From: Pantoea allii
Lineage (GTDB): Bacteria > Pseudomonadota > Gammaproteobacteria > Enterobacterales > Enterobacteriaceae
Assembly (NCBI RefSeq): GCF_002307475.1
Contig: NZ_NTMH01000020.1
Coordinates: 1 to 64,000 of the forward strand
Length of the DNA: 64,000 bases
Direction of reading: 5' to 3'
Shown piece after piece: positions 1 to 6,146 of this stretch. The position numbers and the translations under genes were made by a program. Every line of letters starts with the position of its first letter. The stretch's first letter is position 1. The notes under the pieces were generated by a model, which worked only from the letters and a program-made list of their open reading frames with translations, searched no databases and was not told the DNA's origin.

Positions 1-34
1 CGGGGCTTCTCATCCCCCTCAGCGCAGAATATGC

Positions 35-64
35 AAAAAAAAAGTCCAGAGGTTAGTCTGGACT
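35..64 (-). terminator. Rho-independent terminator of tRNA-Ser
   Basis: On the minus strand an 8-bp perfect stem (AGTCCAGA / TCTGGACT, six-base loop) is followed by a run of nine T residues. It lies 13 bases past the tRNA 3' end, so it closes a monocistronic tRNA transcript. Confidence 0.9.
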
Positions 65-76
65 CTTCTTTGAATG

Positions 77-164
77 TGGCGGTGAGAGGGGGATTCGAAC
101 CCCCGATACGTTGCCGTATACACACTTTCCAGGCGTGCTCCTTCAGCCACTCGGACACCTCACC
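77..164 (-). tRNA. tRNA-Ser, anticodon GGA
   Basis: The minus strand reads as an 88-nt class II (long variable arm) tRNA with an encoded CCA end. It starts GGTGAGGTGTCCGAGTGG and has the T-arm GGTTCGAATCC. The anticodon is GGA, at 128-130 on the plus strand, which decodes UCC/UCU. The sequence is nearly identical to the E. coli tRNA-Ser(GGA) I remember. It has its own strong promoter (203-231) and terminator (35-64). tRNA-Ser genes are common integration sites for islands, but nothing to the right looks integrated; the left side is cut by the window edge. Confidence 0.97.
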
Positions 165-202
165 GCAAATTGTCGCTGACCGCGCTGGGTCAACGGGGCG
201 CT

Positions 203-231
203 ACTATAGGGAGTCGGCCTGAAACGGTCAA
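203..231 (-). promoter_or_regulatory. Sigma-70 promoter of tRNA-Ser
   Basis: On the minus strand TTGACC (226-231) and TATAGT (203-208) are separated by exactly 17 bases. They are followed by the GC-rich discriminator GCGCCCC typical of stable-RNA promoters under stringent control. The start site would fall about 30 bases before the mature tRNA 5' end. Confidence 0.85.
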
Positions 232-370
232 GCACTATTTTTCTCTTTTGTTCTATTCGCTTAAGCTCTGAACGAATCGCATTAAGGCTGCGCAAAAGTC
301 GGTTTTTTAGTGCAAAAAACGCGACAGTGCACAGCGCATTTGTCGGGAAGATTCGCCAGGATGCGTAAGC

Positions 371-910
371 TTACTGCGCGCTTTTTACCCGGTTAGCAAA
401 ACTCTTACGCAGCTTTTGCAGTTTAGGTGGAATCACCGCCATGCAGTAACCGTTGCGCTGACCGGCACCTTCCCAATAATCCTGATGATAACCTTCCGCC
501 GGATACCATGCTTTTAACGGCTCAATGGTTGTCACGATCGGGTCATTGTGATCCTGCTGAGCGCGCGCAATGGCCGCCCGGGCTTCTGCTTCCTGATCCG
601 GCGTCTCAACAAAAATAGCGGAACGGTACTGTGTACCGATGTCATTGCCCTGACGATTAAGCTGGGTCGGATCGTGGGTCGCAAAGCTGATGTCCAGCAA
701 ATCGCCGTAGCTCACCTTCTCAGGATCAAAACCAATACGAATGGCTTCGGCATGGCCGGTGGCACCGCTGCATACCTGCTCATAGGTCGGATTAGGGCGC
801 TCGCCGCCGGTATAACCACTTTCCACTGACTCAACGCCGATCACATCTTTAAATACCGCTTCTGTACACCAGAAACAGCCGCCTGCGATCACTGCATATT
901 CGATAGCCAT
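371..910 (-). CDS. msrA: Peptide methionine sulfoxide reductase MsrA
   Basis: This 179-aa cytoplasmic enzyme should reduce methionine-S-sulfoxide in proteins using thioredoxin. The family signature GCFWCTE is at residues 11-17, with the catalytic cysteine at 12. A further cysteine in the C-terminal NGYCMAVIPP segment is the likely resolving residue. The protein is shorter than E. coli MsrA (212 aa, from memory) because it lacks the N-terminal extension, so it belongs to the compact MsrA form. The ATG has AGGAGTAAC just upstream on the minus strand. It is monocistronic, with the tRNA-Ser unit downstream. Confidence 0.93.
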   Translation of the reverse strand: MAIEYAVIAGGCFWCTEAVFKDVIGVESVESGYTGGERPNPTYEQVCSGATGHAEAIRIGFDPEKVSYGDLLDISFATHDPTQLNRQGNDIGTQYRSAIFVETPDQEAEARAAIARAQQDHNDPIVTTIEPLKAWYPAEGYHQDYWEGAGQRNGYCMAVIPPKLQKLRKSFANRVKSAQ

Positions 911-1090
911 AAAGTTACTCCTGTCTGGTCTGAAGGAAAGAGGTGGGGATGGGATCGATCGTTTTCAACGCCACAAGGCAATTCACTCCGTGTCAGCCTG
1001 TGGCAGGGTCAGGAAATGACGTGAGGCGAATGACTTAGCGTAGCAGGGATTGCTTGCCTGTGCCTGAAGGGAAACCTGAGGGCAGTGCGG

Positions 1091-1107
1091 TTTAATGTTT
1101 CCTTAAT
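1091..1107 (+). promoter_or_regulatory. Probable PmrA (BasR) binding box
   Basis: The sequence TTTAAT-GTTTC-CTTAAT fits the known PmrA half-site repeat (YTTAAK, five bases, YTTAAK) in both halves. The second half-site stands in the -35 position, 17 bases before CATAAA (1125-1130), a 4/6 match to a -10 hexamer, so the layout resembles activator-dependent PmrA promoters. The box faces the small gene at 1149 and lies beside pmrAB. The function is inferred from sequence only. Confidence 0.6.
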
Positions 1108-1148
1108 ATAAGGAAGAGATACTGCATAAAACGTTACCGGAGAGACCA

Positions 1149-1268
1149 ATGAAAACCACTAGCGTATCCGTCAGTTCTGTTTCGTCGCGCAGCAGCAGCG
1201 AATATCTTGCTACCATGATTGCCGTCTGCACAGTGATTGCCTTCCTGGCCTGCTGGTTCAACGGCTAA
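1149..1268 (+). CDS. 39-aa single-span membrane peptide, putative PmrA target
   Basis: The frame starts at ATG 1149 behind a GGAGAG ribosome binding site and encodes 39 residues. A Ser-rich polar N-terminus (MKTTSVSVSS) is followed by one hydrophobic helix at about residues 19-37 with two cysteines (VCTVIAFLACWF). Its stop overlaps the pmrB stop by four bases, tail to tail. A PmrA-box-like promoter lies 42 bases upstream. I do not recognise the sequence. In Salmonella PmrA controls a small membrane peptide, PmrR, that inhibits LpxT; this peptide is a different sequence but could be an analogue. Expression is unproven; the ribosome site, helix and promoter together support a real gene. Confidence 0.55.
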   Translation: MKTTSVSVSSVSSRSSSEYLATMIAVCTVIAFLACWFNG

Positions 1269-2344
1269 AGCACGCCAGCGAAGTTTACCCTGGCGCGGCA
1301 GCCTGAACGGTCAGGGCGATTTTCCAGCAGAAATTTTCCGTTATGCAGTTGGACAATCCGGCTGACAATACTCAATCCTAGCCCGATGCCGCCATAGCGC
1401 GTATCCATGCGCACAAACGCTTTGCTCAGTTCACCGCTCATACTCTCATCAATCCCGGCCCCTTCATCCTCTATAACCAGCGACATGCCGGTGGCGTTTT
1501 CAAGCCGAACCGTAATGTTGCCTTCGGGTGGGCTATAGCGATGGGCGTTCTCGACCAGATTACGCAGCAGCATCCTGAGCAATATGGCATCGCCTTTAAC
1601 CACGAAAGCGTTTTCAACGTCCAGAGTGAGTGTCTGGTTACGCGCCTCAAGCATCGCGCTCAGCTCGGCTTCCATCGGCAGGATCACCTCATCCACCATC
1701 GCGACATTCTGGTAGCTGCCAGAGGTAAACTGCTGACCGGCACGCGTGAGTTGCAGCAACTGGGCGACATTTGCAGTCATCTGATCCAGCCGCTGTAATA
1801 AAGGCTGAGTATCGACCGCCTGATTACGTTGTAACAGCTCAAGATGTAACCGCAGCCCGGCCAAAGGCGTCCGCAGTTCATGGGCAACATCGGCAGTGAA
1901 GAGTCGTTCACGTTCCAGACTGGCGGTTAAGCGCGCGACGAGCCGATTAATAGCCTGCGTCACCGCGTCAATCTCCTGCACCGAGCCTTCAAAGACAATC
2001 GGTTCCAGATTCACTTCACTGCGACTTTCGAGTTCGTGCTGCAGTTGATAAAGCGGGCGCGTAATCCATCTTACCGCCTGATAGCACAGCAGCAGCGTCA
2101 GGGTAATCATCACCAGGCTTGGCAAGGCAAGGCTGACGATGGCTTCGCGCACTTCTTTATTAACGTGCTTATCCATATTGCGGTTATGCAGATGGGCTTC
2201 AACCAAAAACTGTACCTGCTCTTTGCTTTCATGCCAGAGCCACGCAACGCTGATCAACTGAAAAAACAGCATGATCAGTCCAATCGTGAGCATCAGCCGA
2301 AAACGCATCGTGGTGCCAGAGCGATAAGGATTCATGGTTATCAC
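1265..2344 (-). CDS. pmrB: Sensor histidine kinase PmrB (BasS)
   Basis: This inner-membrane kinase should sense ferric iron, aluminium or low pH in the periplasm and phosphorylate PmrA. Residues 16-36 form the first membrane helix. A short periplasmic loop of about 37 residues contains acidic pairs (HESKE and KEVREA, the latter ExxE) like the iron-binding motifs of Salmonella PmrB. The second helix is at about 72-90, a HAMP-like linker follows, and the phosphoacceptor histidine is residue 154 in [12 protein letters not shown] and G boxes ([27 protein letters not shown]) follow. The GTG start overlaps the pmrA stop by four bases; ATG 2335 is an alternative start. It is translationally coupled to pmrA. 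Confidence 0.93.
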
Positions 2345-3018
2345 GACTCTTTTTCTGTACGCGACGGCGATAAGGCATAGCCGAAACCGCGCACTGTACG
2401 GATCATGCTTTTGCCAATCTTGTCACGCAGGTTATGAATATGAACTTCAAGCGTATTGGTGGAAGGTTCATTATCAAAGTTGTAGATGTCCTGATACAGC
2501 AACTCGCGATGAACAGGATGGCCCGCCTTAAGCATCAGGCGGGACAGGATGGAGAACTCTTTTGGTGTGAGGTCCAGTAGCGTATTGTCCAGATGAATCT
2601 GGCGGTGAGTCATATCCAGCGACAGATTACCCACCTCGACGCGGGAGTCACCCTGATTAACGTGACGCCTGATCAGCGCACGAATCCGGGCCAGCAACTC
2701 ATCCAGTGCAAAAGGCTTTATCAAATAGTCATCAGCCCCGGCGTCCAGTCCCGCAATGCGCTCCTCTATGGTATCGCGAGCGGTCAGGATCAACACCGGC
2801 TGCATCTGCTTTTGCCGACGCAAACGTTGCAACAAATGCAGCCCGTCTTCATCTGGTAGGCCGATATCCAGAACCAGCAGGCTATAGAGCCCATTAGCCA
2901 GATGCGCTTCTGCGGAACGCGCCGTCGAAACACCATCACAAACGTAGCCTGCACCTTCCAGCGCCAGTACCAGTCCCTGTAAGAGCAGGGTATCGTCTTC
3001 AACAATCAATATCTTCAT
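2341..3018 (-). CDS. pmrA: Response regulator PmrA (BasR)
   Basis: This 225-aa OmpR/PhoB-type regulator should control lipid A modification genes. The receiver domain spans about residues 1-115, with acidic residues 8-9, phospho-acceptor Asp51 ([13 protein letters not shown]) and the switch lysine in [10 protein letters not shown]. The winged-helix domain (about 130-220) ends with the conserved [13 protein letters not shown] and [10 protein letters not shown] motifs. The protein aligns along its whole length with the E. coli BasR that I recall. In E. coli the operon is eptA-basR-basS; here no eptA precedes it, and the 900 bases upstream are gene-poor. Confidence 0.95.
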
Positions 3019-3924
3019 AATCGTTTTTTGGGGACCTTTACCAACCAGCGCAGGTTATTGGAAGAGAGGTTGCAGCGCCTCCGCCTCAACAGACTCGGAT
3101 TTCTCAGGACATGCATGTTGAGCATTTTGACCGAAAACCAGAAGGCCGCCTATCGAATCCGGGGAAATGCGACTTTTACATCGCACGACGAATATCTGTT
3201 ACAGGCATCCCGTACTCAATGCCTGAATGATACCGCGTTTACGCCGGCGGCCTGCCCGCATTTGCTAAGACCAGAAAGCGCGTTAACGTGCACGTTTATC
3301 GTAAAGCACGCATCCCTTTCGGCAAATACAGCGTTCAGCATTGGTAAAAATAATCTAATCAGTAAAAAAGGACAGTGCGCCAATTTAAAAAGGAATCATC
3401 AGAAAAAGAGGGTAGCCATACGCTATAAGAAAAAACAATTAATCACCCTTATTATCAATTGAGGAATATTCATTTAACCCAGAAGCAAAAGCCGGGATCA
3501 AAATGTCCAGAACAGACAGGACATATTTGCCGACAATAATATTGTCGAGTCTGCCTGTGAAAGATTAGGAAAACCTTAAACAGGTCCATTTATTACATTT
3601 ATGTTTCGTCTGGATTTGCGCAAAAACGATCCAGTAATCGCGAAATGCAAGTGAAATTTTCTACGACCCTGTTAAAGCGAGACGGCTGGCACGGGAAATG
3701 CATATTTCTGGCAGAACAGAAGATAGCGACTACACTTTATGTGGCGACAATGACAGTCAGCGGGTTTATCAGCATTGAAACGCGTTTGTTTTTGGAGATA
3801 ACGTTATAGAATTGCAGGGTTTTACCACGCACTCTCCTTACTTCATATGGCCTTGAGCCAACCTCTTGCTGAAATCCCTCTGCTGTAATGTCCTGATGAT
3901 GAACCTATTTACAGGAGAAGACAC
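3019..3924. other. Gene-poor region between pmrA and otsB
   Basis: This 906-bp divergent intergenic region is AT-rich, especially from 3300 onward. A 144-codon open frame at 3028-3462 has Cys- and Arg-rich composition, no ribosome site and no recognisable domain, so I do not call it. A perfect 17-bp palindrome is at 3531-3547. The region must contain the pmrAB promoter on the left and the otsBA promoter on the right, but I cannot place either with confidence. Confidence 0.6.
3531..3547. repeat. Perfect 17-bp palindrome
   Basis: CGACAATAATATTGTCG reads the same on both strands around a central A/T. Shorter matching arms flank it (ACAGG about 12 bases before, CCTGT about 6 bases after). It could be an operator for a dimeric regulator or an RNA hairpin. 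No regulator is identified. Confidence 0.5.
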
Positions 3925-4713
3925 GTGACCCAGACGGCAGATAGTGATGCCTCATTCCCGTCATTGAGCGGCGGTCTGTATGCCTTCTTTTTTGATGTTG
4001 ATGGCACGCTGGCAGCGATTCAGTCCCAGCCAGATGCCGTTTTCATTCCAGAAAATGTCGTCGCACAACTGCAACGGCTCTCATTTTTATGCCACGGCGC
4101 ACTGGCGCTGGTCTCAGGTCGACCCGTTGAACAACTTGACGCACTGGCGGCTCCTCTGCGTGCACCAGCAGCGGGCGTTCATGGCGCAGAACGGCGCGAT
4201 GCGACAGGCGAGCTGCACCGGGTGACCTTGCCGGACGACGTTGAACGTCCGCTAAAAATCATGCTTGAGAATGCGATGGCGCAGTGGCCCGGCACGCAAC
4301 TTGAAGCCAAAGGCATGGCGTTTGCGCTGCATTTTCGTCGCGCACCGCAGTACGAGCAGGATGTCATGCAGCTGGCAGAGGCGGCAGTCAGCCGTTTTGA
4401 TGGCCTTGCGCTGCAGCCAGGCAAATGCGTCGTTGAAATCAAACCTACCGGTATTGATAAAGGCGCAGCCGTCCATAAATTTATGCAGGAAGCGCCATTC
4501 TCAGGCCGTATCCCCGTATTTATCGGCGACGACCTCACAGATGAAAAAGGATTCGCTGCAGTGAATGCGATGCAGGGGATCTCGATAAAAGTCGGAGAAG
4601 GCCCAAGCGAGGCACGTTATCGTTTACATGACGTTACGGATGTCCATGCCTGGCTTGAAAGAACACGATTACAATTAGAGAAAGACAACGTTGGTAAGGA
4701 GTTTAGGTTATGA
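3925..4713 (+). CDS. otsB: Trehalose-6-phosphate phosphatase
   Basis: This 262-aa cytoplasmic HAD-superfamily phosphatase converts trehalose-6-phosphate to trehalose, the second step of osmoprotectant synthesis. Motif I is FFDVDGTLA at about residues 22-30. Further HAD motifs are LVSGRPVEQLD and the C-terminal FIGDDLTDEKGF with the metal-binding aspartates. The start is GTG, as in E. coli, behind a strong CAGGAGAAG site. It overlaps otsA by four bases (ATGA), so the two genes are coupled. In E. coli the operon is RpoS-dependent and salt-induced; the same is likely here but no promoter was resolved. Confidence 0.95.
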   Translation: MTQTADSDASFPSLSGGLYAFFFDVDGTLAAIQSQPDAVFIPENVVAQLQRLSFLCHGALALVSGRPVEQLDALAAPLRAPAAGVHGAERRDATGELHRVTLPDDVERPLKIMLENAMAQWPGTQLEAKGMAFALHFRRAPQYEQDVMQLAEAAVSRFDGLALQPGKCVVEIKPTGIDKGAAVHKFMQEAPFSGRIPVFIGDDLTDEKGFAAVNAMQGISIKVGEGPSEARYRLHDVTDVHAWLERTRLQLEKDNVGKEFRL

Positions 4714-6146
4714 GTCGTTTAGTGGTTGTATCTAACCGTATCGCCATGCCAAATGGTAACAAAACCAGTGCAGGCGGCCTTGCAGTCGGTATTCTGGATG
4801 CGCTTAAGAGCACTGGCGGACTCTGGTTTGGCTGGAACGGTGAGATTAGTGAGTTTTCAGGCGAGGAAGAAAACCCGGTATCGGTCATGGAGCACGACGG
4901 TATTGAGTACGCTTCTTTCCCTTTGAGCCAGAACGAGTACGATCTCTACTACTGCCAGTTCTCCAACACCGTTATCTGGCCTGCCTTCCATTACCGCCTG
5001 GATTTAGTGCAGTTCCAGCGTGAAGCCTGGGAAGGCTACTGCGAGGTAAATGATGCGGTGGCACAGCGCCTGAAGCCATTGATCCAGCCGGATGACATCT
5101 TGTGGATTCATGATTACCACTTTTTGCCGTTCGCCGCCGCGCTGCGTCGGGCAGGCATCAACAACCGCATCGGTTTCTTCCTGCATATTCCGTTCCCTAC
5201 GCCGGAAATTTTCAATGCGCTGCCTCCGCATCAGGAACTGCTGGAGATGCTGTGCGAATACGATTTACTGGGTTTCCAGACAGAATCAGATCGCGTCGCC
5301 TTTCTCGACAGCGTCAGCCAACTGACCCAGTTGCAGAACAAGGGTGATAAGAAACATCGCGCCTACGGCAACACCTTTATGACGGAGGTTTACCCTATCG
5401 GGATTGAACCAGACAGCATTAAAGAGATGGCAGAAGGGCCATTGCCACCGAAGATGGCCGCGATGAAAAAAGAGCTCGGCGATGCGCGTAATATCATTGC
5501 CTGTGAACGGCTGGATTACTCCAAAGGGCTTCCCGAGCGCTTCCTGGCTTATGAAGCGCTGCTGGAAAACTATCCTCAACATCGGGGTAAAATCCGCTAC
5601 TCGCAGATCGCGCCAACGTCACGTGGTGATGTGCAGGCTTACCAGGACATCCGCCATCAGCTTGAAACCGAAGCAGGGCGCATCAATGGTAAATACGGTA
5701 CGCTGGGCTGGACACCACTCTATTACCTCAACCAGCACTTTGATCGTCGCTTGCTGATGAAAATCTTCCGCCTAACCGACGTCGGTTTGGTCACACCGCT
5801 GCGTGATGGTATGAACCTGGTGGCGAAAGAGTATGTTGCGGCGCAGGACCCGGATGACCCAGGCGTACTGGTGCTGTCCCGTTTTGCCGGTGCAGCTAAT
5901 GAGCTGACCTCGGCATTGATAGTGAATCCTTATGACCGGGATGAAGTGGCCGCAGCGCTGGATAAGGCCATTACCATGCCCCGTACAGAAAGGATTTCAC
6001 GCTATAACGACATGATGGCGGTATTACGCAAAAACGATATCACCGCCTGGCGTGAAAGCTTCTTACGCGATCTGGAAAAGATTGCGCCACGTAGCGCAGA
6101 TCATGGAATAGCGAATAAAGTGGCAACCTTTCCTAAACTCGCCTGA
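4710..6146 (+). CDS. otsA: Trehalose-6-phosphate synthase
   Basis: This 478-aa retaining GT-B glycosyltransferase (family GT20) joins UDP-glucose and glucose-6-phosphate to make trehalose-6-phosphate. The N-terminal glycine loop ([11 protein letters not shown]) that closes over UDP-glucose is at about residues 16-26. Other conserved parts are WIHDYHFLP, the phosphate-binding [13 protein letters not shown] and the C-terminal [12 protein letters not shown] that binds the nucleotide sugar. Length and sequence match E. coli OtsA. It is the last gene of otsBA; a hairpin follows at 6152-6175. Confidence 0.96.

Follow-up and report, generated by a model that had tools for sequence, protein, structure and literature searches.

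A divergent PmrR-like gene in Pantoea and its persistence in lineages without EptA

The pmrAB locus and the small gene opposite pmrB

The window is the whole 64-kb stretch of Pantoea allii DNA that was analyzed here. The sensor kinase gene pmrB (1265-2344, minus strand) and the response regulator gene pmrA (2341-3018, minus strand) were identified by their matches to the NCBIfam PmrB and PmrA equivalog models, at 549 bits (cut-off 314) and 368 bits (cut-off 330), respectively. Pantoea ananatis LMG 2665 has the closest named pmrB (90% identical) among the best 80 of 115 relatives. Many members of the genus carry a PmrA/PmrB pair that is just 55-58% and 47-50% identical, respectively, to that of the window (L171-L183), and in genomes G005 and G033 such a distant PmrB is found next to a closer one.

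On the opposite strand, an open reading frame of 39 codons (1149-1268, plus strand) begins with ATG 4 nt after a ribosome binding site that was read from the sequence as GGAGAG (1139-1144, plus strand). Residues 19-37 of the encoded peptide are hydrophobic (Kyte-Doolittle mean of 2.16) and make up its one predicted membrane helix, as would be expected of a short single-helix peptide of the PmrR kind. The gene lies tail to tail with pmrB and shares four bases with it (1265-1268), a position by which pmrR genes are recognized. The original prediction, made for this DNA, had described a 39-codon gene with a good ribosome site, a single hydrophobic helix and a four-base overlap with the end of pmrB, and each of these features was recovered.

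The consensus sequence of the PmrA box is YTTAAK-N5-YTTAAK. Four sites in the 64-kb window match this consensus with at most one mismatch, and the sole perfect match on either strand, TTTAATGTTTCCTTAAT at positions 1091-1107 of the plus strand, is the putative PmrA box of the pmrR promoter. Its half-sites, TTTAAT and CTTAAT, are separated by GTTTC and are those named in the prediction. The -10 element GATACT (1118-1123, plus strand) starts 10 nt after the box. Both the hexamer and its spacing are shared by 10 of the 11 named Pantoea loci, the eleventh (L082) having GAAAAT at this position, and E. coli MG1655 has CATACT at the same distance of 10 nt past its pmrR box. The spacing from box to -10 element differs at L081, L093, L094, and L097. 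The -10-like CATAAA that had been proposed is present at 1125-1130 but is not conserved: of the regions compared, just those of the window and P. ananatis have it 3' of the box. The conserved -10 element is GATACT. The end of the box and the start codon are separated by 41 nt in the window and by 44 nt in E. coli. At 44 of the 45 named loci with both box and peptide (among the best 80 of 115 pmrB relatives), the start codon lies 38-46 nt past the box. At L099 the first ATG is 28 nt past the box, and a second in-frame ATG lies behind it.

A second PmrA-box-like site, TTTAAGGTTTTCCTAAT, with one mismatch to the consensus, is located at 3564-3580 on the minus strand, 545 nt ahead of pmrA. A site of the same kind precedes eptA in relatives, and the site at 3564-3580 appears to be an eptA-type promoter that has been left without eptA. 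A tblastn search of positions 3000-5000 of the window found no remnant of EptA, the matches being at chance level only (best E value of 0.13). The same arrangement, a box in front of pmrA with eptA missing, occurs in P. ananatis, P. stewartii, Klebsiella indica, three Tatumella genomes, and Izhakiella.

The codons of the peptide are under purifying selection. Twelve Pantoea sequences of equal length were compared, and over the 53 of 66 pairs that were used (13 pairs with a pS of at least 0.7 were excluded) the mean pN/pS for the peptide gene was 0.39. Between the window and P. ananatis the dN/dS is 0.50, a value obtained from a short sequence. In an alignment of 34 peptides W36 is invariant, and a phenylalanine precedes it by four residues in 30. 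Two checks had been proposed with the prediction, conservation of the frame beyond the closest strains and the ratio of synonymous to nonsynonymous change. The frame is conserved well past those strains, both in the genomes of relatives and at named pmrB loci, and the ratio speaks in favor of a real gene. The 39-codon open reading frame is a real gene that encodes a conserved predicted membrane peptide.

No Pfam or NCBIfam family covers the peptide; a match to the Pfam family DUF2649 was discarded at 14.9 bits against a cut-off of 25. An Rfam search of positions 1-4000 with E values of up to 1 likewise gave no match over the peptide. The same search returned a tRNA at 80-164 and three other matches that are far below their gathering scores.

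Relationship to PmrR and distribution among relatives

In excerpts of PMC8129183, pmrR is described as lying opposite eptA-pmrAB, overlapping pmrB at its 3' end, being transcribed from a promoter with a PmrA box, and encoding an inhibitor of LpxT. PmrR was described in Salmonella, and the content of that description is taken second-hand from parts of PMC8129183 and PMC8004244. In E. coli MG1655, pmrR (b4703, 29 aa) occupies 4332116-4332205 of the plus strand and basS occupies 4332181-4333272 of the minus strand, with an overlap of 25 bases; the pmrR box is CTTAAGGTTCACTTAAT. A placement of E. coli pmrR beside eptC/ppc was considered and rejected, since the gene adjoins basS.

A profile was built from 27 non-Erwiniaceae peptides at the pmrR position (E. 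coli, Klebsiella, Kluyvera, and others). It matches the window peptide with 24.8 bits and an E value of 3.4e-6, ahead of every non-member among 4,274 small open reading frames; two unlabelled frames that outscored it (L090 and L198) both lie at pmrB and were counted as members. None of the 2,944 scored shuffles (of 3,000) reached the score of the window peptide, the best having 13.5 bits. The reverse profile, from 22 Erwiniaceae peptides, finds E. coli PmrR with an E value of 6e-4 (Z of 4274) and 12 of the 27 non-Erwiniaceae peptides at E values below 0.01; two of the 27 were missed even at an E value of 10. The window peptide and E. coli PmrR are identical at 11 of 28 aligned residues (39%).

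The curated NCBIfam model for PmrR, the equivalog NF033224, does not match the window peptide, and none of the 60 relatives has a match above its cut-off, which is an operational rather than a biological criterion. At E values of up to 10 the model matches 13 of the 34 members of the alignment; a search of the relatives at the same limit also matched unrelated control genomes and was excluded from the presence counts. Because the model is unmatched, we claim the window peptide as a divergent orthologue and not as an NF033224 equivalog. Judged from sequence, the gene is best described as a divergent pmrR of a Pantoea close to P. ananatis.

This description departs from the original prediction, which had held the peptide to be different from PmrR. 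The synteny with E. coli pmrR (place, orientation, overlap, and box) and the profile homology contradict that claim. What stands is that the gene is real and conserved, encodes a membrane peptide, carries a PmrA box, and plausibly feeds back on the PmrAB pathway; what falls is its distinctness from PmrR. A literature search for PmrR in Pantoea or Erwinia found no paper in a collection with thin coverage of subscription journals, so prior publication is possible. A literature match for LpxT together with Pantoea was a review that, from the portion available, concerns the small RNA MicA.

A search with the window peptide alone matches 37 of 60 relatives at E values of up to 1, many of them weakly. 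The 34-row alignment as query matches 35 of the 60 at E values of up to 0.01, including 34 of the 36 genomes of the genus (all but G006 and G013), and 29 of these 36 match at E values below 1e-9. Of 392 genomes drawn from the wider family, 94 match. The neighborhood of pmrB was scanned in the best 80 of 115 relatives, of which one (L128, at a contig end) was dropped to leave 79 named loci. Loci were scored, on the strand opposite pmrB, for a box with no more than one mismatch and for a peptide of 26-45 residues that ends in an aromatic-x3-W motif. The pair of box and peptide is found beside pmrB at 45 of these 79 loci and is absent as a pair at 34. A box with at most one mismatch is present at 46 of the 79 loci and a perfect box at 38, against 1.4% and 0.05%, respectively, of base shuffles; L142 is the only one of the 79 with a box and no peptide. 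Many genera preserve the tail-to-tail placement of the gene and pmrB.

Among the 29 strongly matching genomes of the genus, the peptide gene is at pmrB in 17 and elsewhere in 12. These 12 have kept the frame together with a box-like site that has one mismatch (5 genomes) or two (7 genomes). In G022, G027, and G031 (L186, L187, and L188) the gene lies away from pmrAB and directly upstream of eptA on the same strand, which ties it to the modification of lipid A and argues against a purely antisense role. Additional PmrR-like peptides were also encountered. Genome G022, which has the copy upstream of eptA, carries a second one with a perfect PmrA box on contig C10 (L207, 3977-4063, minus strand), and weaker matches of a second class occur in G005, G017, G018, G021, G029, G033, and G034. 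The peptides at L208 (3335-3421, plus strand) and L210 (5611-5691, minus strand) lack a good PmrA box and stand directly ahead of another eptA copy, whose product is 66% identical to E. coli EptA.

LpxT, EptA, and the proposed function

The inhibition of LpxT by PmrR is known from E. coli and Salmonella. In the window genome (G000) LpxT is encoded at G000:C9:246225-246911 and is 59% identical to that of E. coli. LpxT is present in all 36 genomes of the genus and, among the best 80 of 115 relatives, in 45 of the 45 named genomes with PmrR at pmrB and in 21 of the 34 without box and peptide; PmrR thus implies LpxT, and not the reverse. The 13 genomes of this set that have no LpxT are 12 from Gilliamella/Frischella and one Pluralibacter MAG, and the co-occurrence is therefore confounded by ancestry. 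It is consistent with a functional link, as judged from genome content, and is no proof of one. The Kluyvera genomosp. 3 genome G525 (L124) was counted as LpxT-bearing with its LpxT in three pieces, one with a stop; LpxT is broken there, yet PmrR and box are intact. The distant genome G045 has a weak peptide match (E value of 0.0065) and no LpxT. ArnT is also present in the window genome. The arnT region is found twice, on contigs C29 and C30 (L184 and L185), with 4,620 identical bases, and this looks like an assembly duplication.

We observe the gene, its box, the geometry of the promoter, the homology, the position, and the presence of LpxT, and we consider it likely that the open reading frame is the Pantoea orthologue of pmrR, controlled by PmrA and inhibiting LpxT. 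In the proposed mechanism, phosphorylated PmrA would bind the box at 1091-1107 and start transcription at the GATACT promoter. The 39-residue single-helix peptide would then be made and would presumably insert in the inner membrane, where, by analogy with the known systems, it would inhibit LpxT, which attaches a second phosphate group to lipid A at position 1. The surface would become less negative as a consequence, and the PmrB signal would be damped.

The excerpts of PMC8129183 describe EptA as a competitor of LpxT for position 1 of lipid A. A search of the window genome found no EptA, the best match being 30% identical. The lone EptA-like protein of this genome is 27-30% identical to EptA and more weakly similar to EptC, and was taken for another phosphoethanolamine transferase. 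Within the genus, 33 of 36 genomes have EptA at 47-71% identity (in two pieces in G001, and as a fragment with stops in G013). A genome-wide search for EptA was made in nine of the 80 named genomes, namely seven without eptA next to pmrA and two controls; 11 Gilliamella/Frischella loci without eptA beside pmrA, which also have neither box nor peptide, were left out. In the controls, Tatumella morbirosei and K. pneumoniae, an EptA of 70-71% identity was found. The best EptA match is only 28-30% identical in P. ananatis, P. stewartii, Klebsiella indica, Tatumella ptyseos, and Tatumella JGM91 and JGM118, all of which have kept the peptide and the box. Izhakiella australiensis is without EptA and without the peptide at pmrB. 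The EptA-less genomes that keep PmrR and its box belong to three genera (the P. ananatis group, Klebsiella indica, and Tatumella) and all keep LpxT; the independence of the losses was judged by genus alone, and gaps in draft assemblies may mimic absence.

That PmrR is retained where EptA is missing suggests that it has a use other than vacating position 1 for EptA. Since the window genome has no EptA, the peptide hardly acts there by clearing this position for it. The role that is left is to reduce the 1-diphosphate as such or to open a place for L-Ara4N. We give about even chances to the broader statement that the selected role of PmrR is independent of EptA, in that it lowers the 1-diphosphate itself, favors L-Ara4N, or damps PmrB.

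Alternative explanations and known systems

A homologue of PmrR by descent might act on another membrane partner, either PmrB itself, as MgrB does on PhoQ, or ArnT. The moderate identity to E. coli PmrR (39% over 28 residues), the retention of the peptide despite the missing EptA, and an N-terminal extension that is exclusive to the Pantoea group of the window among 61 aligned peptides would fit this reading. We hold it to be unlikely, however, as LpxT accompanies the peptide at pmrB in every one of the 45 genomes tested among the best 80 of 115 and occurs in all 36 of the genus, and as the C-terminal part of the peptide is better conserved than the N-terminal part (nonsynonymous change of 0.19 versus 0.31 per site). 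The gene might instead be a functionless leftover that is decaying in lineages without EptA, such as that of the window. The dN/dS of 0.50 against P. ananatis, from a short sequence, points in this direction, as do the single mismatches in the boxes of P. ananatis, P. stewartii, and Tatumella JGM91 and the joint absence of EptA and peptide at pmrB in Izhakiella australiensis. Decay is nevertheless improbable when the frame and a box with at most one mismatch persist in the window, P. ananatis, P. stewartii, Klebsiella indica, and three Tatumella genomes, all of them EptA-less.

The main product of the locus could also be an RNA, with read-through from the box promoter running antisense into pmrB and lowering its expression. 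No intrinsic-terminator-like site was found at 880-1500, the tail-to-tail arrangement is preserved across many genera, and in the excerpts of PMC8004244 the region 3' of pmrB affects the level of pmrB mRNA in E. coli BL21. The idea applies beyond the window genome, given the 25-base overlap of pmrR and basS in E. coli. The end-points in the BL21 study were 86, 103, and 126 bases (PMC8004244, in part). In E. coli MG1655 (L062, 1556-1617) the pmrR box lies 110-126 bases and its -10 element 94-99 bases beyond the basS stop; the end-points bracket both, and therefore the reported effect may reflect the pmrR promoter. The purifying selection on codons, together with the 12 of 29 strongly matching genomes of the genus in which frame and box-like site are kept away from pmrB, which an antisense role leaves unexplained, makes an RNA as the main product very improbable. 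That the frame arose by chance could be argued from its shortness and from the lack of a Pfam or NCBIfam family over it, but conservation already refutes this, and with the profile, synteny, box, and selection evidence the chance is negligible.

A PmrA-controlled PmrR that inhibits LpxT remains our preferred reading. PmrR itself is of an already known kind, and what is new is its retention in several lineages that have lost EptA, the enzyme that PmrR had been supposed to assist. PmrR is hereby extended from E. coli-like bacteria to the plant-associated Pantoea, Erwinia, and Tatumella, and the signature of box plus peptide can be used to find it where the curated NCBI model misses its cut-off, as it did in all 60 relatives searched. 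On the EptA-independent reading, the EptA-less species offer natural tests for telling apart the two uses proposed for LpxT inhibition. These lineages pose a testable question: whether LpxT is inhibited to make room for EptA, or to alter surface charge and iron binding directly.

The closest known system is PmrR of E. coli K-12 (b4703; NF033224, LpxT activity modulator). Both genes lie on the strand opposite pmrB and overlap it at the 3' end, both follow a PmrA box with a 10-nt spacing to the -10 element, and both encode a short peptide that has a single helix and, close to its C-terminus, F-x3-W. The window peptide is ten residues longer (39 versus 29), its gene overlaps pmrB by 4 rather than 25 bases, and the next gene is msrA in the window whereas it is proP in E. 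coli; the window also differs in having no eptA upstream of pmrA and no match to the NCBI model. MgrB, a PhoP-regulated peptide of 47 aa that inhibits PhoQ (PMC8404706, in the part available), is likewise a small membrane peptide of a two-component regulon that feeds back on its own system, but its regulator and its target are different.
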